The position numbers and the translations under genes are program-made. From assembly GCF_024662215.1 (NCBI RefSeq), contig NZ_CP096115.1, positions 186,001 to 250,000 on the forward strand: 64,000 nt of DNA, given 5' to 3'. The notes under the pieces are model-generated. The model made no database searches. It worked only from the letters and a program-made list of their open reading frames with translations, and was not told the origin of the DNA. The stretch comes from Methanoplanus endosymbiosus. GTDB lineage: Archaea; Halobacteriota; Methanomicrobia; Methanomicrobiales; Methanomicrobiaceae. Below are positions 1 to 12,235 of this stretch, piece after piece. The stretch's first letter is position 1, and the number at the start of each line of letters is the position of its first letter.

Positions 1-1209
1 ATGGTCAGGCACTGGCCGGTCAGAAAGGCAAGGCCAATCGGGAAGAAGCTTGACCCGGTTGAGCCGCTCATTACAGGCCAGAGGGTTATAGATACACTCT
101 TTCCGATTGCAAAAGGCGGCACATCAGCTGTTCCCGGCCCATTTGGAGCCGGTAAAACTGTAGTGCAGCACCAGCTTGCCAAATGGTCGGATGCTGATGT
201 CATCGTCTATGTCGGCTGCGGGGAGCGTGGCAATGAAATGGCCGATGTGCTGCGTGAATTTCCGAGGCTTGAAGATCCAAAGACTCATGAACCGCTTATG
301 AGGAGAACTGTCCTGATTGCAAACACCAGCAATATGCCTGTCGCTGCAAGGGAGGCGAGTGTCTATACCGGAATCACTATTGCGGAATATTACCGTGACA
401 TGGGTTATAATGTCGCATTAATGGCAGATTCAACCTCACGCTGGGCAGAGGCAATGAGAGAGATCTCAGGAAGACTTGAGGAGATGCCTGGAGAACAGGG
501 CTATCCGGCATATCTTGCTTCACGTCTTGCGGATTTCTATGAACGTGCCGGAAGGGCAAGGGTTCTTGGAAGCAGTGAGAGTACAGGCTCAATTTCGGTC
601 ATAGGGGCGGTCTCGCCTCCGGGGGGAGATTTTTCAGAGCCTGTAACCCAGAATACTCTTAGGATTGTCAGGGTTTTCTGGGCTTTGGATGCAGAGCTTG
701 CCCATGAACGGCATTTTCCGGCTGTAAACTGGCTTCTCTCGTACTCTCTTTATACTGATCTGGTATCTTCCTGGTGGGAGGAGAAGGCAGGAGGGGGCTG
801 GGCTGAAATGAGGCAGGAGATGATGAGCCTGCTGCAAAAGGAGAGCGAACTTGAGGAGATTGTTCAGCTTGTAGGACCTGATGTGCTCCCGGAGGGTGAT
901 CGACTTATACTGCTGACGGCAGGGATAATCAGGGACTCTTTCCTTGTGCAGTATGCAACAGATAAAGATGATCGCTACTGCGCACCATTTAAGCAGAATG
1001 CCATGATGAAGACTATTACAGGCTTTTACAGACTTGCCGGAGATGCTGTAAAGAGAGGTGTTCTGACATCTGAGATCGCAGCACTTCCGGCTTTGCAGAG
1101 TTTCACCCGTCTTGGAAGCAGGCCTGATGATGAGATACTTTCTGTCTGCAATGAAATTATACATTCTCTGAAGACAGGGATTGAAGATCTCAACGGGGAT
1201 GGTGTATAA
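1..1209 (+). CDS. atpA: A-type ATP synthase catalytic subunit A (5' truncated by window)
   Basis: This is the C-terminal 402 residues of the catalytic A subunit, which hydrolyses or makes ATP in the A1 head of the archaeal membrane ATP synthase. The Walker A loop GPFGAGKT lies at residues 46-53 of the fragment, followed by the family segment [13 protein letters not shown] and the Walker B region [20 protein letters not shown]. The full protein is usually near 580 residues. The reading frame is open to base 1, so the first Met here is internal and the true start lies upstream of the window. The stop overlaps the atpB start by one base (TAATG), the usual A-B-D order. Identity is very secure; only the missing N-terminus is unseen. 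Confidence 0.97.
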
Positions 1210-2597
1210 TGGTGAAGCATGGAAGGGAGTTCTCTTCGGTAGTAAGGGTTGAAGGGCCACTGATTGCAGTGGAGGGTATTGATGATGCAGATTATGGTGA
1301 GCTTGTTGAGGTCAGGTTTCCGGATGGCACAATACAGAAAGGGGAGGTCCTTGAGACAAGGAGGGGCCTTGCAATTGTGCAGGTCTTTGGAGGCACAAGT
1401 GATCTTGATACAGATATAACTTCAGTCAGGTTTACAGGTTCGCCTATGAAGATCGGTGTCTCGCGTGAGATGCTCGGACGGGTGCTGAGCGGCCAGGGTG
1501 AGCCGATAGACGGGGGTGGAGATGTAATTCCCGATATGGTCATGGATATCTCCGGCTATTCTATTAATCCCTTTGCCCGGGAGTACCCCGAAGATTTTAT
1601 CGAAACCGGAATATCTGCAATGGATGGTATGGATACACTTGTGAGGGGGCAGAAGCTTCCGATTTTTTCAGGTTCAGGAATGCCTCATTCGCAGCTTGCT
1701 GCACAGATCGCAAGGCAGGCCCGTGTGCTTGGTGAAGAGGAGGATTTCGCACTGGTCTTTGGTGCCATGGGCATTACCTATGAGGAGGCACATTACTTTG
1801 AGCAGGAGTTCAGACGGACAGGTGCTCTTGAACATTCCGTTCTTTTCGTCAACCATGCAGATGATCCGGCAATTGAGAGAATAATTACGCCAAGGCTTGC
1901 ACTGACTGCGGCTGAGTATCTTGCCTTCCATGAGGGGATGCATGTTCTGGTGATTCTTCAGGATATCACAAGCTATTGTGAGGCACTTCGTGAGGTCTCG
2001 GCTGCAAGGGAGGAGGTTCCGGCCCGCCGGGGTTATCCGGGTTATATGTACACTGATCTCGCCTCCATATATGAGCGTGCCGGAAGAATCAAGGGGAAAA
2101 ATGGCTCAATTACCCAGCTACCAATCCTTACCATGCCGGATGACGATATAACCCATCCTGTACCTGATCTTACCGGCTATATCACTGAAGGGCAGATTGT
2201 ACTCTCCCGTGAGCTGCACAGGAAAGGGATTTATCCCCCGATAGATGTCCTGCCCTGTCTGTCACGCCTGATGAAAGGTGGTATCGGAGAGGGCAAGACA
2301 CGCGGGGATCATTCTGCGTTAAACAATCAGTTGTACGCGTCATATGCCAGGGGTCGGAGGCTTCAGAACCTTGTTGCAGTTATAGGGGATGAGAGCCTGA
2401 CACCTGTGGACAGGCTTTATCTCTCATTTGCAGATCGTTTTGAAGATGAATTTGTCAGGCAGAGGCATAATGAGGGGAGAAGCATAGAAGAGACGCTTGA
2501 TCTCTCATGGAGCCTGCTGTCAGTATTTCCAAAAGAGGAACTCAAGCGTATAGATGAAAAATACATAGAGAAATATTACCGGAAGAACGGAGCATGA
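1209..2597 (+). CDS. atpB: A-type ATP synthase regulatory subunit B
   Basis: The 462-residue non-catalytic B subunit alternates with A in the A1 hexamer. It has the expected fold but no Walker A lysine: the position reads [19 protein letters not shown], as in other archaeal B subunits. The segments [22 protein letters not shown] and [24 protein letters not shown] are typical of the family (each named here only by its ends: ARRGYPGYM to YERAGR, and SITQLPIL to VPDLTG). Length is normal. It overlaps the atpA stop by one base and atpD follows after four bases, so the three are translated from one transcript. Confidence 0.97.
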
Positions 2598-2601
2598 AGG
2601 A

Positions 2602-3261
2602 ATGAAGGCACGGGTCATAAGGGGTGTCAGGCCGACAAGGATTGAGCTTCAGAAGATAAGGAAGAGGATTGTCCTTTCAGAGCGGGGCAGGGAGCTTTTG
2701 CAGGATAAACTTGATGCCATGACCGGCGAGATGATGCGTATGAAAAAAGAGCATGCTGCACTTGCCAGGTCAGTTGATGACCATGTGCATACTGCATATC
2801 CGGCCTTAACCCGTGCAGGCATGAGTATAGGGTGGCGCAATCTGTCAGCAGTTGCAAAAACAACTGACGGGATGGCAGATATAGAGATGCAGACCCGGAA
2901 TATTATGGGCAGAAGGGTGCCGGATATTGTGATTCCGGATAAGCTGAGGGAGTCCCTGATTCCGGGCTATACACTCTCAGGAACCACTGCATATGTGGAT
3001 TGTGCCGGAACTGAGTTTGAGAAGCTGACCATTGCCCTTATACGACTTGCGGAGGCGGAAGGTGTCATGCACTCCCTTGAAAGCGAGATCAAAAAGACAC
3101 GGCGCAGGGTTAATGCTCTTGAGAATGTGCTTATACCCTCACTGAATGCAACCTCCGAATATATTGAAAGCTATCTTGAGGAGCTTGAGAGGGAGGACTT
3201 ATTCAGAAGGAAAAGGGCAAAGTCTGTGCTTGCCGGAGGCGGAAAGTGGGGACGGGGGTGA
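2602..3261 (+). CDS. atpD: A-type ATP synthase central-stalk subunit D
   Basis: A 219-residue subunit D, the rotating coiled-coil shaft that couples the A1 head to the membrane rotor. The N-terminus has the family pattern (VRPTRIELQKIRKRI, then LLQDKLDAM). Long helices at both ends flank a variable middle, and a basic, glycine-rich tail (GGGKWGRG) ends the protein. The start follows atpB by four bases. In other methanogens D closes the operon, sometimes followed by a tiny hydrophobic protein, which may be the case here too. Confidence 0.95.
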   Translation: MKARVIRGVRPTRIELQKIRKRIVLSERGRELLQDKLDAMTGEMMRMKKEHAALARSVDDHVHTAYPALTRAGMSIGWRNLSAVAKTTDGMADIEMQTRNIMGRRVPDIVIPDKLRESLIPGYTLSGTTAYVDCAGTEFEKLTIALIRLAEAEGVMHSLESEIKKTRRRVNALENVLIPSLNATSEYIESYLEELEREDLFRRKRAKSVLAGGGKWGRG

Positions 3262-3510: not shown

Positions 3511-4296
3511 ATGCATATAAGGTACAGATCGTCAATATTTATTTCACTTGCACTAATTGTTTCATTACTGCTCTTATGTCTCCCGGCATCAGCTGTAATT
3601 GTGGAGTTAGGGGATGGAAACCTCGCTGAATCACAGAATGAAGGAGGACTTATACAATATACAATTGAAGTGAGCGGCATTCCAAAGCAGGCAGAGATCA
3701 TTGAGATGGATACTGACCTGATCCCTGTCCCTGAAAAAGACCTCTGGCAGTTTGCAGAGGGCGAATTTAACATCTCAGGCGGAGAAGAATCCTTAAATGA
3801 TCACAATGTAGAGCTTACAGCCGAAAGCGGATTTCCGGATAAGATTACTGTAACTGTATATGGCAGAGTTCCGGTTCTGACATCTGTAGAGATTGTGGAC
3901 GGCGTTGTTGTAACAAGAAGAATTACGCAGACGACAGGTTATATCTACTACCACATACAGGCGCTTGATGAAAACCGCGATATTATAGGAACAGGCACAA
4001 CAAAGACATTTTCCATTACAATACCTGATGACGAGCAGTTCATGGCACAGCTCAATGCAGTAACAGATCCGGAGATGCGTGAAATCATAGATGATCTCTA
4101 CTCAAGAGGTCTGAGAGATGAGGCAAAAGGTCTCTTAAAATATGCAAAATCTCCAAAAGAGGCAACCCTGCCGTTTACAACCGCAGTTTTGATTGGGGTT
4201 TTAATGCTCATAATCGGTCTGGGAGCCGGAATAATATTCGGACAGATCAGAGCGAAGAATATGCAGGACTTTCAGAAAGAATACAAGGAGAACTGA
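3511..4296 (+). CDS. Exported single-span membrane protein, first gene of the tubulin/GTPase operon
   Basis: This 261-residue protein is not recognised as a named family. It has an N-terminal signal peptide (hydrophobic core SLALIVSLLLLCLPASA), then about 150 residues of alternating beta-type sequence that should lie outside the cell. A helical stretch at about 190-215 (REIIDDLYSRGLRDEAKGLL) precedes one transmembrane helix at about 221-245 and a short charged cytoplasmic tail. Predicted topology is outside-in, anchored at the C-terminus. It ends three bases before the tubulin-like gene, whose ribosome site AAGGAGA lies inside this gene's last codons, so the two are translationally linked. 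A role as envelope partner of the cytoplasmic tubulin-like protein is inference. Confidence 0.75.
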   Translation: MHIRYRSSIFISLALIVSLLLLCLPASAVIVELGDGNLAESQNEGGLIQYTIEVSGIPKQAEIIEMDTDLIPVPEKDLWQFAEGEFNISGGEESLNDHNVELTAESGFPDKITVTVYGRVPVLTSVEIVDGVVVTRRITQTTGYIYYHIQALDENRDIIGTGTTKTFSITIPDDEQFMAQLNAVTDPEMREIIDDLYSRGLRDEAKGLLKYAKSPKEATLPFTTAVLIGVLMLIIGLGAGIIFGQIRAKNMQDFQKEYKEN

Positions 4297-4299
4297 TTA

Positions 4300-7200
4300 A
4301 TGGCTCATGATGAAATAATTGAGGGAAAACCTTTCCAGATGCCGGACGAACTGACTGTTGTTGCAATCGGTGGGTGCGGGAAAAAGCTTATATCAAACCT
4401 TTATGACCACGAATGGTTTTTAAAGCACTATCTGACTGACGGTAAGCGCCTCTCATTATATACAATAGATACAGACTCAAACCAGAGAAAGGATGATATA
4501 AAGCGATCTGAAGCTGTCATGTCAAGGCTTGGGGATATCCAGAGGACAAACAATCAGATGGGCGGGAGCGTAAAGAGTTTCCATTATCACCTGCCTGACC
4601 TTGCCAATGTCGAGAGAGTTTCATCCCTGACATCAAGGGATATTGCAGAGCAGATGAAGAGACGGCGTGAAAAGCCTCTTGTTGATGTCTGGTGGATGAA
4701 TGATCCTGAATACGGGTTTGACTACCAGATGCTCAAAAAAATTGACAAAAATATTGTTGATGACTTCGGCGGTGGGGTGCACAGAAGGCGTGCCATATCA
4801 AAAGCGGTATTTTACAAGGCCATAACACAGGGCGGAGAGCAGTTCCCCTCATTTCAGGGACACGGGCCTGTTGCAATAATTGTCGGCCTTGGGGGGGGAA
4901 CAGGCTCAGGCATGTTTATAGATCTCGCCCGCTACATCAAAGAGAAACGCGGGCAGGAGTCCAAGATCTGGCTCTTTGTCATCCTTCCGGCAGCAAGCGA
5001 AGGCGAAAAAGAGCAGTTAAACGCCGCAATTGCACTGTCTGAGATTGAATATCTCAATATGAAAGAGGACAAACTCTTTAACTACATAATCGTCTCATCA
5101 CTAAGCCCCACAGGATATGTTGACGGAGGAGACAGAAAGCAGGAGGTTGTCGAATTTGACTCTGCATTCCCATACCTCTTCATAAACTCCTTTTATCTCC
5201 CGACAGCAGATATATCCGCAATCGTGGACGCAAAAAAAGATTATTCGGGTTTCATATTTGCAGATTCACATGTGATTGAATATCCGGTTGAAAACCTCCG
5301 GTCACTAAAGAAAGGCTTTGAGGACGTAATAGAAAACCTTGGCGGCATTTCACAGAACAGGTCAAAAATATTAAAAGAGGTCTCGGATTTCATCACCACT
5401 GGTGAAAACCTCTACCCGGGTGAATTTTCAAAGACTGACACAGAAATTACCCACGATGATGTAAACCTCTATAAAAAAGAGATTGAGAGGATAAAGAAGA
5501 GCTGGGAGAATGATATAACTGACCTGTTAAACTTTAAGACCCAGTCCATAATCGAATCTGCGGTTACCAATAATATGCCTGAAGAGTTAAAAGATGTCTC
5601 TTCATTAAAGGACTTTGACAAACTGACCGAATATGTATCAAGGCTTAAAAAATCTCTTGAAAATGAGAGCAAACCGCATGAAAATGCCAAAGATCAGGAG
5701 CTTTATGAAGTCATAAAGAAGAATCTGCTGTTTTTAGAGGAGATGTCACACCTTGAGAAGAAGATACTCTCTGTAAATGAAAAATCGGCAAGAATGGCCC
5801 TGTTAAATATTGTCAGGGGTGAGGAGAACTTTGGAAAAATTTCAGGTGATCTCTCATCGCGACAGTCCGGACTTAAGGCTGAGATCAGCGAGGCCGATGC
5901 AAAGGTAAGAAAGAGACGTATTGAGCTTGAGGAGATTAAAAAAGAGGAGAGCAGTGTACTTGACCAGATAAAGTCTGAGGTCAGTGCACTTGCAAAACCA
6001 GTTGAGGACTATATTGCACTTGGACATGGTGCAGCAGGATCGGACTCGGTCGAAGATCTTGAGAGGGCGTTTCTGGATAAGTTCTCTGCACTGCTCTTTG
6101 TCTTGAAGGAGAAGCTTAACCAGTCCGGAAAAAAGAAGGCAAAGCCGATAAAACGTGACGTATGGCTCTCATCACTGCCGCTTGGGGATCTCCAGGGTGA
6201 TATCGAGAATCTTGAGGGAGCAACCTCAGCAGATTTCTCGTACCTGAAAGACCTCGCGGAGTCAGTATCCCTTTACTTCTACAACGACTACATGCTCAGG
6301 GTTGCTAAGAAGCAGGGTTTCGCAGACGGAATTTTGGGCAGAAAGCTCAACCCGGAGATATTCCGGAGCGAGAAACAGACAAAAGAGGAGAGAATCAGAA
6401 AAATATCACAGATGCATCCCGGAAAGATATCCATACGTGATCCGTTTGAGGTATTTGTTCAGGATAAATTCCTGACACGGGAGTTTGATTCCAGGCTTGG
6501 TTCGTTAAGAGAGGCAACAATAGGCCCGCTCGTCTCACAGTTCAATCTTGAATCGGATGAGAAGGCCATGCTTATCAACTCTTTTTCCGGAAGGGACACT
6601 GCATCAATAATAACTGGTGTCAGGGAGAGTCTGACTGACATTATAAACATGCGTGAAGGCTACTCCTCAAAGAGGGGAAATCTTAATACTGAGATTGATG
6701 TGTTGATCCAGTCGCAGAAAGTTATGCAGCAGGAGGTTGAATTCCTTCAAAAGACTGACGATCTTGTCAGTTCAACCTTTGAGGCGAGAAAAAAGTACAA
6801 TGCTGAGACTGAGTCATATGAGTCCGGACTCCGGGCAATAGATGAGAAGAGAAGGAGTGGGAATAAAACGATTGAAGGAATGTACAGGACGTGGTTTGGT
6901 GAGATAAACCCGAATATTCTCTCGCTCTTAAATGATGACTCAGATCTCTCTGTTCTGGACTATGATGAAGAGGGTAAATCTGAGATAGAGAAACTGTACA
7001 ACATTGTTCAGTGGAAGTACAAAGAGCTTGTTGACGCACATAAACTTGGTATCAATAATATATCTATTGGATACGGAAGTGCCGGCACTGAGAGATGGAG
7101 CTTTGACAAGTCTGCTCTTGTGGTGTCATCTCCGTCACGATGGCTGTCACAGCTTACCGAAAATAAAGGGAGTGATTTCAGGCGTTACCTTGTTAAATCA

Positions 7201-7551
7201 CTTGATCTTAAAGGTTTTGACAGTGCAAAGGTAAATTCCCACAATTATACAAAGCCTTGGGAGATCTCACTCACATTCTTCGCAGCCGCAGGTTTTCTTG
7301 AAAATATCTCGCCGCTTACAACCGGTGGAGGGTACTGGGAGAAGTACGATAAGAACAGGAATAACATCCTTCACCATGCCCTTTATCTCCATCAGGGTAA
7401 GTATATCTCCCGTGAAAAGACCCTGCTGTTAACAGATGCAGCAGAGATCGCAGATCTTGAGTCCGGCGGCAAGACAGAGATTGATGAGGCAAAAAAGAGG
7501 ATAATGGATTTATATTCCGTCAAGGACATCAAAGAGGCAGCCGGTGAATGA
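4300..7551 (+). CDS. Large tubulin/FtsZ-superfamily GTPase-like protein with coiled coils
   Basis: A 1083-residue soluble protein whose first 350 residues look like a tubulin/FtsZ nucleotide-binding domain. VVAIGGCGKKL near residue 20 matches the N-terminal loop of FtsZ, LYTIDTDSNQ resembles the FtsZ NTDAQ region, and the tubulin signature GGGTGSG lies at residues 198-204. The remaining 700 residues are mostly helical, with long charged coiled-coil stretches at about 410-570 and 780-870. It is far longer than FtsZ or CetZ and resembles the large bacterial proteins grouped as tubulin-like (Pfam Tubulin_2). There is no signal or membrane helix. Its stop overlaps the next start (ATGA). GTP binding is likely; polymerisation is unproven, and I could not place the catalytic T7 loop with confidence. 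Confidence 0.85.
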   Translation: MAHDEIIEGKPFQMPDELTVVAIGGCGKKLISNLYDHEWFLKHYLTDGKRLSLYTIDTDSNQRKDDIKRSEAVMSRLGDIQRTNNQMGGSVKSFHYHLPDLANVERVSSLTSRDIAEQMKRRREKPLVDVWWMNDPEYGFDYQMLKKIDKNIVDDFGGGVHRRRAISKAVFYKAITQGGEQFPSFQGHGPVAIIVGLGGGTGSGMFIDLARYIKEKRGQESKIWLFVILPAASEGEKEQLNAAIALSEIEYLNMKEDKLFNYIIVSSLSPTGYVDGGDRKQEVVEFDSAFPYLFINSFYLPTADISAIVDAKKDYSGFIFADSHVIEYPVENLRSLKKGFEDVIENLGGISQNRSKILKEVSDFITTGENLYPGEFSKTDTEITHDDVNLYKKEIERIKKSWENDITDLLNFKTQSIIESAVTNNMPEELKDVSSLKDFDKLTEYVSRLKKSLENESKPHENAKDQELYEVIKKNLLFLEEMSHLEKKILSVNEKSARMALLNIVRGEENFGKISGDLSSRQSGLKAEISEADAKVRKRRIELEEIKKEESSVLDQIKSEVSALAKPVEDYIALGHGAAGSDSVEDLERAFLDKFSALLFVLKEKLNQSGKKKAKPIKRDVWLSSLPLGDLQGDIENLEGATSADFSYLKDLAESVSLYFYNDYMLRVAKKQGFADGILGRKLNPEIFRSEKQTKEERIRKISQMHPGKISIRDPFEVFVQDKFLTREFDSRLGSLREATIGPLVSQFNLESDEKAMLINSFSGRDTASIITGVRESLTDIINMREGYSSKRGNLNTEIDVLIQSQKVMQQEVEFLQKTDDLVSSTFEARKKYNAETESYESGLRAIDEKRRSGNKTIEGMYRTWFGEINPNILSLLNDDSDLSVLDYDEEGKSEIEKLYNIVQWKYKELVDAHKLGINNISIGYGSAGTERWSFDKSALVVSSPSRWLSQLTENKGSDFRRYLVKSLDLKGFDSAKVNSHNYTKPWEISLTFFAAAGFLENISPLTTGGGYWEKYDKNRNNILHHALYLHQGKYISREKTLLLTDAAEIADLESGGKTEIDEAKKRIMDLYSVKDIKEAAGE

Positions 7552-9113
7552 TAATAAACAGTAAGAGAAGAAAAATCTATCTTCTTTTAGGTCTGCCAAT
7601 CAGCATTATTGTTGCATATATCTTTATGACCATTGCTCCGGTATTCAAGCTGCATCCAACCCCTTCTGAGCTGACAGTCTTTGTTGAGTTTTTATGCGGG
7701 CTTTTTTTCGCAGTCGCCGTTGGAATGCTCTTCAATGAGGATTCCAGAATAAACGGGGTCATCTATGCCGGAATTTTTGCAGGCATTCCGGCATTTTATG
7801 TTCAACTGACCCCGTGGGCTGATGTATACCTTCTGATGCTTGCTTTTTCAGCCGGAATTATCTGCGGTGCTGTATTTGTCATCAGGGCGGTTATGACAAA
7901 TCATTATGACAATCTTGCAAAATTTGCACGGGTTTTATTTACAGTATTCTTTGCAATTATTGTCGGTTTTTTAGCATATGAGATGTATGCCACTGCAATG
8001 CCTTCTGACACGGCTGTGGACTCTGCATATGCTGCGCAGAACATCTTCTTTTATGGTATTGGAATTGTTCTCTCCCTGATTTTATACTGGCTTGCGATTA
8101 AGATAACAATCGGTGTCAGGGCATCTGAGATATTTATATTCGGGCCAAGGTCATCGGGCAAGACATATTTTGTCCTTGGACTGTGGGATTATATATCCGA
8201 AAATTTCGACAGGGGGCATTCCAATGAAGGTGTTGTCCTTACTGGTGATCCAAACGATGAGGGGGATGAACTGATGATCTCCAGCCTGTATGCAAATGTT
8301 CTTGACGGAAAGATACTCTCAAGGACATACCGTTACCAGATGGTGATGTACCAGCTTACAGGTAAAAAATATGGCATAATTCCTATTAAGTGGACTGTTG
8401 TTGATTATGCCGGTGAGTATTATGATGAACTCAATGAGATAAATTTCAAAAAGGCGGTTGCACTCCTGAGTGACAGGCTCAGGATTGCAAGGGCTGACAT
8501 CCGGAAGAATGCCGGGACTATTGATTTTGTCAGGAATATTAAACTGCATCATTCTGAGGAGCTTTTAGACCCGGAGTTTACAAAGAGTGTCATTATTGCC
8601 ACAATGTATGGCAATTTTTTAAAGGCGGGAAAGGTTATCTTTCTGATAGACGGCGAAAAAATTACTGATGACAGAAAGGGCCATGCTCAGCTTGCAAGGG
8701 AGTTTGGTGGATATATGAAGACTTTAATTGATCTTGAGGGCAGAAATTACTTCGGGTTTCTCAGGCCGGACAAGAAGTATGCACTTGCGGTTACTAAGAC
8801 TGATCTTGTATTCTGGAAGAATAAGGAGATTAAGAACCTCATCCATTCTATGAGTGCCGGAAAACTGTCAGATATTCCTGACAGATCAAGGGAGGCACAG
8901 GCCATTGAAGAGAATATCTTTGAAATTCTCAGTGCAAATAAGGTCTTTAAAAATCTTGTGAATATGATGAATGACATCTCTATGTATTTTATCGCCGTTT
9001 CTGTGGATGCAACGGCAGAGCCGTTTCCTACTGAAGATGGGGAAGAGGAGGAGATAGCACCAATGGCAATTACACCGTGGAGATTTTCTGAGATATTCAA
9101 ATTTGGCTCTTAG
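7548..9113 (+). CDS. Multi-span membrane protein with a cytoplasmic GTPase-like P-loop domain
   Basis: A 521-residue protein with about six transmembrane helices in the first 190 residues, followed by a P-loop domain. The Walker A/G1 motif GPRSSGKT is at 199-206, a G3-like DYAG at 286-289 (context VVDYAGEYYD), and a G4-like TKTD at 416-419. Together these indicate a TRAFAC-type GTPase fold with guanine specificity. About 130 residues separate G3 and G4, more than in Ras-like proteins, so an insertion is present. It overlaps the tubulin-like gene by four bases (ATGA), strong evidence of coupled translation. It resembles membrane GTPases of bacterial multi-gene regulatory systems, but the subfamily should be checked by profile search. 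It could recruit or regulate the tubulin-like protein at the membrane; that is inference. Confidence 0.8.
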   Translation: MIINSKRRKIYLLLGLPISIIVAYIFMTIAPVFKLHPTPSELTVFVEFLCGLFFAVAVGMLFNEDSRINGVIYAGIFAGIPAFYVQLTPWADVYLLMLAFSAGIICGAVFVIRAVMTNHYDNLAKFARVLFTVFFAIIVGFLAYEMYATAMPSDTAVDSAYAAQNIFFYGIGIVLSLILYWLAIKITIGVRASEIFIFGPRSSGKTYFVLGLWDYISENFDRGHSNEGVVLTGDPNDEGDELMISSLYANVLDGKILSRTYRYQMVMYQLTGKKYGIIPIKWTVVDYAGEYYDELNEINFKKAVALLSDRLRIARADIRKNAGTIDFVRNIKLHHSEELLDPEFTKSVIIATMYGNFLKAGKVIFLIDGEKITDDRKGHAQLAREFGGYMKTLIDLEGRNYFGFLRPDKKYALAVTKTDLVFWKNKEIKNLIHSMSAGKLSDIPDRSREAQAIEENIFEILSANKVFKNLVNMMNDISMYFIAVSVDATAEPFPTEDGEEEEIAPMAITPWRFSEIFKFGS

Positions 9114-9140
9114 CCTCTGGTTTCATGGTGATCTGTAAAT

Positions 9141-10571
9141 ATGTATGATTCATATGGGATATTCACAACAGACGGCATTACTGTTGCAGGAACCCTGCAT
9201 GACGAATATGCGGTACATCTTGCCGAGAGGCTTGACGAGAGCACGGCATCTCTGTATATCAGCACAAAAAACGGGGAACTGCTGCTTGGAACGGCTGTAA
9301 ATGTACAGAAGAAGGGCAGAAGGCCGGATACTTTCATATATCTCGAAAAGACCGGACTTAGAGGCGGCCTTCTGCCCGGAATTAACCTCTCCTATATTCA
9401 CGGATTTTATACCCGTGTGCAGGATAAGCTGTCGCAGATTGATTATGTGGTCCGGGATCTTGCATCTGACAATGATTTCTTTGATAATCGGCACAGTACA
9501 GTGATAACCGGACTTTTGGGTCCGGATGCTGCTGATTATACAGTTGGGCGGCTTGTTCTTGGGAAGGACACTGTATGTGTCTCAGATAACCTCTCAAAGT
9601 CTGTTGACTTTGTTGTTGCCGTTGCAGAGAAGCTTCATTCATATCTGCCGGCAGGTTTTACTATGGTGGTATCGAAGATGACCTTTAGAGGGGCTGATCT
9701 GAATGTAGCAGAGAAGTATTCCGGAAGGGTTGATATTGACCTTAAAAAAGAAAGGACTGAGAGTTCTGAGACTGGCAGGCTGTACAGGAGTATGGGCACT
9801 TTTGTCCAGAGTCCGGTTGTCAGGAGAAAACTGTCAGGGATAACTTCACGTAGTGAACTGGTGGGGAGGATTATTTCGGAATTTAAGGGCAGCAGCAAAT
9901 TTCCGAAGGATAAATCCGGAATTTTTGATAGATTTCTGGCAGATGAAAATATTGGTGTTAACGGCTCTCCGGCGGACTTTTCATCCTCTGCTTATGAACC
10001 GCAGGCAAAAGGGGAGTTTAAAGCACCTGCGGAATCGGAGTATGGTAAGTGGAAGATCAATGATCTCGACAGGGAGAGTCTTAATCTTGAGTACGAAAAG
10101 CATATGGAGAAGAAGAAAGGCCGGATTCGCCTGCTGGCAGTTATCGGAATACTTGTAATACTTCTGGGAGGTCTGCTCTTTTTTTTTGTGATTAATCCAG
10201 GTTTTTCCGGTGCAAAACCACCGGTAATTGTGACAATTACCCCTTCTGCAACTATTACTCCGGAGGAGAGGACGGCAATAATTACCCGTCTGAGCACACC
10301 ACCGGGCAATGTGCCGGAGGGTCTTTTGGGATTTGGCAGTGCTTATGATATTATGGTCTCCGGGCCACAGAATGTAGTTGTCAATAATACTGCGGAGTAT
10401 AATCCTGACAAGTCATACCGCCTGATGAGATATAATGAGTCCGGGCTTACCTGGGATTATAAGGGCACTCCGGTTTTAATGTCAGATAATTCTGCTGAGG
10501 TGTTTATTGCTGATTCCGGAATATACCGGCTTTTTTCTGACGAAGTCTTTGGGACGGACAAAAAGGTTTAG
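9141..10571 (+). CDS. Single-span membrane protein with large cytoplasmic domain, GTPase-system partner
   Basis: This 476-residue protein is not recognised as a named family. It has no signal peptide. Residues 1-220 are mixed alpha/beta (starting MYDSYGIFTTDGITVAGTL) and probably form one or two adaptor domains. A charged linker with many Ser, Glu and Lys follows to about residue 325, then one transmembrane helix at about 329-352. A roughly 120-residue outside region begins with a Thr/Pro-rich stretch (ITPSATITPEERTA). The topology is inside-to-outside, the reverse of the PEGA protein that follows. It starts 27 bases after the membrane GTPase gene with GGTGATC as a possible ribosome site. Position suggests it links the GTPase and tubulin components to the envelope. 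Confidence 0.7.
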   Translation: MYDSYGIFTTDGITVAGTLHDEYAVHLAERLDESTASLYISTKNGELLLGTAVNVQKKGRRPDTFIYLEKTGLRGGLLPGINLSYIHGFYTRVQDKLSQIDYVVRDLASDNDFFDNRHSTVITGLLGPDAADYTVGRLVLGKDTVCVSDNLSKSVDFVVAVAEKLHSYLPAGFTMVVSKMTFRGADLNVAEKYSGRVDIDLKKERTESSETGRLYRSMGTFVQSPVVRRKLSGITSRSELVGRIISEFKGSSKFPKDKSGIFDRFLADENIGVNGSPADFSSSAYEPQAKGEFKAPAESEYGKWKINDLDRESLNLEYEKHMEKKKGRIRLLAVIGILVILLGGLLFFFVINPGFSGAKPPVIVTITPSATITPEERTAIITRLSTPPGNVPEGLLGFGSAYDIMVSGPQNVVVNNTAEYNPDKSYRLMRYNESGLTWDYKGTPVLMSDNSAEVFIADSGIYRLFSDEVFGTDKKV

Positions 10572-10606
10572 CATTTTTGTCTGTGCGGACAGACGGGTTA
10601 TATCTT

Positions 10607-12235
10607 ATGAAAATTAATCCTGCACTGGGGATAATTCTGTTACTGCTGCTGTTATTTTCAGTGCTGGCTCTTCCTGCCTCTGCCCAGGCTACAAAAGGGA
10701 CAATCTCTGTCACCTCCTATCCGCAGGGTGCAGATATTTATCTGAATGATGAGGATATCGGCCGGCAGACCAATGCAGTGATTGAGGATGTCTTTCCGGG
10801 CATTCACTATGTCCGGCTTGAGATGACCGGGTACCGGACATGGGAGGATATATTTGAGGTGAGGGAGGGTGAGATCTCCTATATCAGTCATAATATGGAG
10901 CCGGTTGTCGGTGATGCCTTCTCGGTTCTGACAAAACCTGAGGGTGCAGCGGTTTTTATTGATGGTGAGTATTCCGGCAGGTCAAATGTGGTTATAAATA
11001 ATGTCCCTGCCGGTGCACATACTGTTCTCCTGACGCTTGACAATTACTCAGATTATTCTGAGACTGTCTGGATTAATGAGGATATGTCACAGTCCCTTAT
11101 TCATAATTTTGAGCCGATCCCGACTACCGGAAGGATTACTTTTGAGTCTGAACCGACTAATGCAGGGATATATCTTGACGGTGAATTTAAGGGAAATACA
11201 AGGCTTGAGCTTGATGACGCTGAACCCGGAACTTATGATGTTATAGTCCGGAAGACGGGTTATGACGACTGGACCGGCAGGGTTGATGTCTCAGCCGGAA
11301 AGATTTCTGAGGTGAAAGCAGAGCTTACGCTCTCTAAGGTCAGTATTTCGGTTGTCACATCACCTGAGGGCGCAGATATTTTTATTGACGGGGTTTTGTC
11401 AGGCATTACTCCGGCTGACATTTCTGTAAATCAGGGGGTGCATACAATTCTTATTGAGAAGTTTGGGTATGAGAGTGTTGAGGAGGAGGTGGATGTCGGA
11501 GCTCTTGGGGCATCTTTTTCATATTCTCTTGTTTCTATGGTGCCTCAGGCGATAGAGGAGGCTGAGATAGCTGTCTCTTTAAACCTTGCCTACAGGCCGG
11601 ATAATGCAGAAAAACTTCTTGAAAAAGCGAGGTATAGTTATAACTCCGGAGACTCCGGTAGTGCTATTGGTTATGCAGAGGCTGCAATTTTAAGTGCTTA
11701 TGATGTCGATGGTGATGGAGTTAAAAATCCGCTTGACATCAGTCCGAATCTTAACAATAATGTGCTGTATGGTCTGCCGGTTCTTATCATTCTGCTTGTC
11801 GGGTGGTTTGTATCTAAGGATTTTATAAGGAGAAGGGTTAAGCCGGAGATAACCCTGCATCTTCCGGGATCATTTAAAGAGGATGATATGTCTGCCCGTG
11901 CGGAGATAATTACAGATGTGAAAGGCGGCCCTTACCGTGGTTTTGTCTGCACTGTATATGTTGATGACACTCCTGTGGATCATTTTACTGACCCCGGCAG
12001 GTATGCTGTAAGCATTGCCGGAAAACGCCCCGGCGTTCATACAGTTTCAGTGCTGCTGCAGGTTGCAAAGGAGAGGTCCGGAACTGCTGAGAGGAAGGCT
12101 GAGGGGAGTTTTACTGTTGAAGCTGTACAGGATTTTAGTGTGAGCAGGAGTGCCGGAATCTTTGGGGATACTAAAGAAGCCAATAATCATGAACCGGATG
12201 AGGCTGTTGCTATTATTGATACTGATGAAAAATGA
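10607..12235 (+). CDS. PEGA-repeat membrane protein, last gene of the tubulin/GTPase operon
   Basis: A 542-residue protein. I use the ATG at 10607 because a signal peptide begins there (MKINPALGIILLLLLLF, then ALPASAQA); an in-frame TTG at 10577 would add ten residues. Four PEGA-type beta repeats of about 70 residues follow (for example GTISVTSYPQGADIYLND and SISVVTSPEGADIFIDG). After a helical segment with an EF-hand-like DVDGDGVKNPLD there is a transmembrane helix at about residue 390-405, then about 130 cytoplasmic residues of beta-rich sequence. PEGA domains are common in archaeal and bacterial surface proteins. The cytoplasmic C-domain is unusual for a PEGA surface protein and offers a contact for the GTPase or tubulin-like partners. 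Confidence 0.8.
   Translation: MKINPALGIILLLLLLFSVLALPASAQATKGTISVTSYPQGADIYLNDEDIGRQTNAVIEDVFPGIHYVRLEMTGYRTWEDIFEVREGEISYISHNMEPVVGDAFSVLTKPEGAAVFIDGEYSGRSNVVINNVPAGAHTVLLTLDNYSDYSETVWINEDMSQSLIHNFEPIPTTGRITFESEPTNAGIYLDGEFKGNTRLELDDAEPGTYDVIVRKTGYDDWTGRVDVSAGKISEVKAELTLSKVSISVVTSPEGADIFIDGVLSGITPADISVNQGVHTILIEKFGYESVEEEVDVGALGASFSYSLVSMVPQAIEEAEIAVSLNLAYRPDNAEKLLEKARYSYNSGDSGSAIGYAEAAILSAYDVDGDGVKNPLDISPNLNNNVLYGLPVLIILLVGWFVSKDFIRRRVKPEITLHLPGSFKEDDMSARAEIITDVKGGPYRGFVCTVYVDDTPVDHFTDPGRYAVSIAGKRPGVHTVSVLLQVAKERSGTAERKAEGSFTVEAVQDFSVSRSAGIFGDTKEANNHEPDEAVAIIDTDEK

Follow-up and report, generated by a model that had tools for sequence, protein, structure and literature searches.

The 64,000-nucleotide stretch of the Methanoplanus endosymbiosus genome (3.16 Mb, one contig) analysed here, hereafter the window, contains at positions 3511–12235 five genes with the same orientation, which we designate T1 (3511..4296, + strand, 261 aa), T2 (4300..7551, +, 1083 aa), T3 (7548..9113, +, 521 aa), T4 (9141..10571, +, 476 aa) and T5 (10607..12235, +, 542 aa from its ATG). 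The mechanically called reading frame of T5 begins earlier, at a TTG at position 10577; with the ATG at 10607 taken as start, the genes are spaced by 3, -4, 27 and 35 bases, in agreement with the preliminary description, and the T2/T3 junction is an ATGA-type overlap. Directly upstream, positions 1–3261 hold a second A-type ATP synthase set (A, B and D genes), the other AtpB copy of the genome (G000:C1:1563567-1564925) being 61% identical. AtpB (62%) and AtpD (36%) are likewise found just upstream of T1–T5 in genome G049 (locus L044), and are wanting in most other loci of the family.

T2 is a genuine tubulin-superfamily protein of the FtsZl1/Tubulin_2 kind. It matches the Pfam families Tubulin_2 (E 3.1e-13, 50.1 bits, cut-off 27) and Tubulin (E 3.9e-9, 37.5 bits, cut-off 33), and it carries the loop GLGGGTGSGMF (residues around 196–206), of which GLGGGTGSG is conserved in 12 of 12 sequences, save one S-to-G change. 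Pfam and an AlphaFold model (AF2; mean pLDDT 71, pTM 0.44) place an N-terminal tubulin GTPase domain at residues about 17–310, and the model adds a long helical/coiled-coil middle (residues 330–880, the long helix starting at 330) and an alpha/beta C-terminal domain (residues 890–1083). The best PDB match of the model in Foldseek is CetZ2 (4b45, E 9.8e-4, probability 1.00), followed by many tubulins; the tubulin fold, whose absence had been named beforehand as a reason to give up the assignment, is thus seen in the model. With about 1000 residues, a long coiled coil and an additional domain at the C-terminus, T2 has the architecture of the FtsZl1 proteins.

Compared with CetZ-type proteins of the same order (hhalign 96.7%), T2 shows 48% identity over 56 residues, covering the GTP loop and the next helix, while its C-terminus gave no match in this profile comparison and no Pfam family, FtsZ_C and Tubulin_C included, was recognised in the C-terminal domain. 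This agrees with the 2010 description of FtsZl1, where neither the T6-H7 region nor the C-terminus could be recognised from sequence (Makarova and Koonin, 2010; PMC2875224). With the C-terminal region unmatched to CetZ-type proteins, it is not certain that T2 forms canonical filaments, a doubt already voiced by the authors of that description (PMC2875224). Judging by the model, the arm may be an insertion close to H7, and residues 890–1083 could be the second tubulin domain. Matches of T2 and T3 in PADLOC and PHROGs were weak, involved coiled coil or P-loop only, and were rejected; comparison with a viral structure library returned coiled-coil matches and phage tubulins, nothing new.

T3 was anticipated to be a multi-span, GTPase-like protein and, in fact, hydrophobicity indicates 5–6 transmembrane (TM) spans within residues 12–184, followed by a cytosolic P-loop GTPase part with the motifs GPRSSGKT (residues 199–206), DYAG (286–289) and TKTD (416–419), corresponding to G1, G3 and G4, which are nearly invariant among relatives. 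In the window and in relatives this diverged, membrane-spanning P-loop GTPase adjoins T2, as in FtsZl1 operons. Its nearest Pfam family is DO-GTPase2 (PF19993), matched at loose thresholds by 11 of 14 diverse members; one T3 orthologue (in locus L092) passes the curated cut-off of 27 bits, with 28.2 bits. The T3 of the window reaches 13.7 bits against the same cut-off, its match falling within the C-terminal half of the profile, and unrelated P-loop proteins of the host genome score 10–14.5 bits through Walker A alone. DO-GTPase2 membership of T3 is therefore tentative, 13.7 bits being no better than the score of these unrelated proteins.

The remaining three proteins, T1, T4 and T5, have one span each besides any signal peptide, as had been proposed. 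T1 consists of a signal peptide, an outside domain of ~190 residues, a TM span at residues 225–243 and a short inside tail; it matched no Pfam family, and searches of Pfam, NCBIfam, PHROGs and PADLOC yielded nothing convincing for T1 or T4. T4 is composed of a cytosolic alpha/beta domain (residues 1–190), a TM span (333–351) and an outside beta-sandwich domain, which in Foldseek resembles many sandwiches. The first 190 residues, mostly well modelled, follow the order strand-strand-helix-strand-strand-strand-helix before a second alpha/beta part, an order that presumably recalls the longin/roadblock partners of GTPases. The likeness of the T4 model to TagF (9t0n, E 3.9e-3, probability 0.96, 233 columns) may be taken as a lead only. 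T5 comprises a signal peptide, four outside PEGA domains (PF08308; four stretches, E 3.5e-54, 181 bits, cut-off 20.8), an acidic motif, a TM span at about 385–403 and an inside C-terminal domain, so that the PEGA repeats ascribed to one of the proteins reside here. The acidic motif, DVDGDGVKNPLD (positions 11699–11737, residues 366–377), has the pattern DxDxDG(x2)N(x2)D, lies just outside the TM span and is invariant in 10 of 10 relatives; by its sequence it resembles a thrombospondin type 3/dockerin-like loop and may be of the calcium-binding kind. From the charge around the spans, T4 has its N-terminus and T5 its C-terminus inside; together with hydrophobicity, this bears out a layout linked to the membrane, with domains on either side of it.

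By its position downstream of the GTPase, T4 seemed a likely GAP1 protein, an identification ruled against by the absent Pfam GAP1 match: the GAP1 models matched none of about 20 T4-like proteins, and no GAP1-M over the cut-off was found in 148 genomes of the phylum. T4 is homologous to the protein that occupies its slot in Methanosarcinaceae (hhalign 98.8%), which is larger and has an added helical region before the TM span. The haloarchaeal protein in the fourth slot was also considered as a T4 homologue and rejected, the comparisons being not significant (hhalign 4.9%, E 0.008, to A3; 0.1% to A9).

The gene order was surveyed by profile and tblastn searches, the host relatives in the public collection being Methanogenium, Methanomicrobium and other Methanomicrobiaceae. 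The order T1–T5 is kept in 16 loci of three families (13 Methanomicrobiaceae loci, the window, and one locus each in genomes G028 and G049, from two other families). Six loci of family f8, taken to be Methanosarcinaceae on account of its Methanohalobium evestigatum plasmid, present T1-T2-T3-T4 without T5, and five loci (G049 and four relatives) a reduced T1-T2-T3 form without T4 and T5; not all five parts are therefore obligatory. In haloarchaea and Methanohalobium, T2-T3 is followed by a different single-span protein. Among 295 genomes surveyed in the phylum, 28 match the T2 profile, and exactly those 28 match the T3 profile (for each, 15 of 107 genera). The counts are not independent, given the relatedness of the genomes and the presence of some of them in the T3 profile. 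The two genes are nearly always adjacent, with the -4 overlap retained in most loci. The T1 profile was found in 19 of the 28 T2-T3 genomes, with one weak match elsewhere, and the T4 profile in 15 methanogen genomes of the 28, leaving out alignment members of unproven homology; its matches in haloarchaea with A6 are built in, the alignment itself containing those proteins.

Pairwise distances of T2, T3 and T4 are correlated (r 0.96–0.97), gene order is kept across mean protein distances of 0.5–0.7, and the T2 and T3 trees recover the same main groups, with the reduced form beside Methanosarcinaceae in each. The flanking genes change from locus to locus, the biggest upstream cluster being present in 7 of 13 loci, the biggest downstream cluster in 5 of 13, and none in all. 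Comparison with the sister species gives dN/dS values of 0.15 for T1, 0.039 for T2, 0.075 for T3, 0.19 for T4 and 0.20 for T5. Purifying selection thus acts on each of the five genes, most of all on T2 and T3, so that constraint is tightest in the inside core and the exposed parts are freer to vary. Since order is kept across families and dN/dS is 0.04–0.20, the T1–T5 block is more than a chance neighbourhood. The conserved co-occurrence and order expected in the preliminary description are thus borne out, and its neighbours do not change freely among relatives, which it had named as grounds for rejection. The system is nevertheless dispensable, since it is patchy (28/295) and some copies lie on plasmids.

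In the genome G049, an additional FtsZl1 protein (L044:13071-16361, 28% identical) directly follows the T1–T5 block, and this genome holds three FtsZl1 members, counting its reduced T1-T3 locus elsewhere. Plasmid-borne tubulin-like genes were observed in locus L099 (Methanohalobium plasmid) and on NZ_CP031147, NZ_CP034691 and CP134701 (haloarchaeal and Methanohalobium copies); a tblastn search for bacterial relatives on plasmids turned up only four archaeal plasmids. The Methanohalobium T2 copy branches away from the chromosomal methanogen copies and, together with the plasmid location, this suggests transfer. The haloarchaeal T2-T3 neighbours combine an inside module (protein kinase-like, DnaJ or slot-4), one or two TM spans and outside CarboxypepD_reg/PEGA-type repeats, the kinase-like domain scoring 28.6 bits, under its cut-off of 31.7. 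Going by these neighbours, the system repeatedly pairs outside beta-repeats with an inside module in one protein. One of them (L102:13514-15502) comprises DnaJ, CarboxypepD_reg and YtkA-like domains; YtkA also occurs in firmicute tubulin/DO-GTPase operons (PMC7159879).

T1–T5 are a real and conserved unit and probably act as one membrane-spanning machine. We infer a physical complex of the FtsZl1 kind that spans the envelope and acts as a GTP-regulated cytoskeletal scaffold organising the cell envelope or surface, a reading to which we assign a probability of about one half. T2 would be the cytosolic, GTP-binding tubulin-like scaffold with its ~500-residue coiled-coil arm, kept at the membrane by the 5–6-span GTPase T3, whose GTP cycle would govern T2 assembly or attachment. 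T4 would be the partner of T3, its inside domain contacting the GTPase and its outside sandwich reporting on the envelope, and T1 and T5 would use their beta-domains and PEGA repeats to fasten the complex to the S-layer or matrix outside. The likeliest role would be envelope or surface organisation (positioning, shape or adhesion) answering an outside cue. For this reading speak the conserved order, the joint occurrence of T2 and T3, the correlated divergence of T2, T3 and T4, the retained overlap, the dN/dS pattern and the haloarchaeal proteins with outside repeats, as well as the Synechocystis Tubulin_2 protein Sll0445, reported with pilus assembly proteins and with impaired phototaxis in its mutant (PMC9880817); against it speak the unmatched T2 C-terminus, the parts lost in some lineages and the dispensability of the system. 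The preliminary interpretation as a whole, in which a cytoplasmic filament or platform was tied to the outside by a GTPase switch, is partly supported, the physical assembly, the filament and the switch being putative. A stronger version, in which the TM GTPase and its dedicated bitopic partner T4 gate the giant tubulin under the control of a calcium-binding PEGA protein at the surface, as an outside-to-inside signalling cytoskeleton that is the archaeal counterpart of and shares ancestry with bacterial DO-GTPase/GAP1/tubulin systems, appears rather doubtful.

Archaeal tubulin relatives are known chiefly from division (FtsZ) and shape (CetZ); here a giant relative shares an operon with a TM GTPase and three anchors that face outwards, an arrangement that would link a cytoskeletal element to the surface. 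The family has awaited a function since 2010, and the five-part set supplies it with named partners and a gene order. The role is directly testable, since Methanosarcinaceae include genetically tractable laboratory strains and carry T1–T4.

Makarova and Koonin (2010; PMC2875224) described the FtsZl1 family with its GTPase partner, membrane-associated in archaea, and proposed a membrane-linked, membrane-remodelling machine. According to this published prediction, T2 would polymerise on the inner face and drive bending or budding, or form vesicles, with GTP. Family and GTPase partner are the same here and most T1–T5 parts are membrane proteins, but no scission or curvature motif was seen in T1–T5, the large, fast-evolving outside beta-repeats suit sensing or anchoring at least equally, and a reviewer of the 2010 paper favoured transport or signalling (PMC2875224); we regard remodelling as rather unlikely.

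A conflict system of the DO-GTPase type (anti-virus or self-nonself), with T3 as DO-GTPase, T4 as diverged GAP1, T2 as assembling effector and the outside repeats as sensor, is in our judgement unlikely. Operons of tubulin, DO-GTPase and GAP1 are known (PMC7159879), most T3 orthologues have DO-GTPase2 as their best family, one of them above the cut-off (28.2 against 27 bits), a haloarchaeal neighbour bears YtkA and DnaJ domains, and the distribution is patchy and in part plasmid-borne. However, the T3 of the window stays at 13.7 bits, GAP1 is unmatched in any T4 and archaeal GAP1-M does not exceed the cut-off, nuclease, protease, TIR or other effector domains were not found and PADLOC gave no relevant match, and the low dN/dS and stable order within the family resemble a housekeeping trait.

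Very unlikely, in our view, is that the set serves as platform for, or positions, an archaellum or pilus at the surface, a reading suggested by the Synechocystis Tubulin_2 protein Sll0445, whose disruption impairs phototaxis and which was reported with pilus assembly proteins as putative interactions (PMC9880817). In the listed loci, whose flanks are partly annotated, no appendage genes were seen adjoining the operon, and the archaellum marker FlaD/E occurs in 15 of the 28 T2 genomes against 114 of 295 overall, being absent in 13 (the model is weak in the family); an archaellum link of T2 was dropped, these counts being uninformative. That five functionally separate genes are neighbours by accident is barely credible, since, although some lineages lost T5 and T4, order persists over distances of 0.5–0.7, T2 and T3 co-occur exactly, divergence is correlated and flanking genes are common to at most 7 of 13 family loci.

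The envelope-organising scaffold that we favour is best compared with four described systems. The suggestion that the set may be undescribed does not hold for its T2-T3 core, which corresponds to FtsZl1 and its membrane GTPase, published in 2010 (PMC2875224), and bacterial tubulin/DO-GTPase operons followed in 2020 (PMC7159879). According to the 2010 paper, T2 shares with FtsZl1 (Tubulin_2, PF13809) a length of roughly 1050–1080 aa, an N-terminal tubulin GTPase domain, a coiled-coil middle and a C-terminal domain, mostly helical in FtsZl1 and also containing strands in T2, and the operons share an adjacent diverged P-loop GTPase and other membrane proteins; a related methanogen, Methanospirillum hungatei, is named in the superfamily alignment legend (PMC2875224). 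Unlike the FtsZl1 operons of that paper, T1–T5 form a fixed five-gene block with the PEGA protein T5 and have no vWA domain (Pfam) or OmpA-type neighbour; since a vWA protein is present there in the majority of predicted operons, not all (PMC2875224), it is no defining feature of the family.

The bacterial operons of tubulin, DO-GTPase, GAP1 and FNIII/vWA/YtkA, described as conflict systems (Kaur, 2020; PMC7159879), share with T1–T5 a tubulin with a helical C-terminus, a TRAFAC-type GTPase (some with TM spans), a TM protein with outside beta repeats and a partner gene directly downstream of the GTPase. T1–T5 differ in having no GAP1 signature or known effector domains and a marginal GTPase similarity in the window; the tie to these systems is partly supported on the GTPase side and not shown on the GAP1 side. 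CetZ of Haloferax volcanii has the N-terminal tubulin fold in common with T2, which is almost three times longer and differs by its coiled-coil arm, the lack of a recognisable FtsZ_C/Tubulin_C and an operon with a GTPase. Sll0445-Sll0447 share the Tubulin_2 domain and a link to membrane and surface machinery; the neighbours of Sll0445 are FtsA-like and DivIC-like (PMC9880817), unlike T1 and T3–T5, and the comparison made here covers the Tubulin_2 domain. In the open-licence literature, this Synechocystis work is the sole experiment found, with no reports of interaction, localisation or polymerisation of archaeal FtsZl1, and a 2023 phylogeny left Tubulin_2 proteins aside as too divergent (PMC9871819). 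In the main texts of the same literature, PMC2875224 included, no description was found of the five-gene methanogen block, parts of which may coincide with the archaeal neighbour families A1-A2 of that paper, nor of the five-part architecture, the T4 slot beside the GTPase and the outside beta-repeats recurring among archaeal versions. The core of T1–T5 belongs to a known family, and the five-part layout is a variant of it that would operate as a GTP-regulated scaffold.
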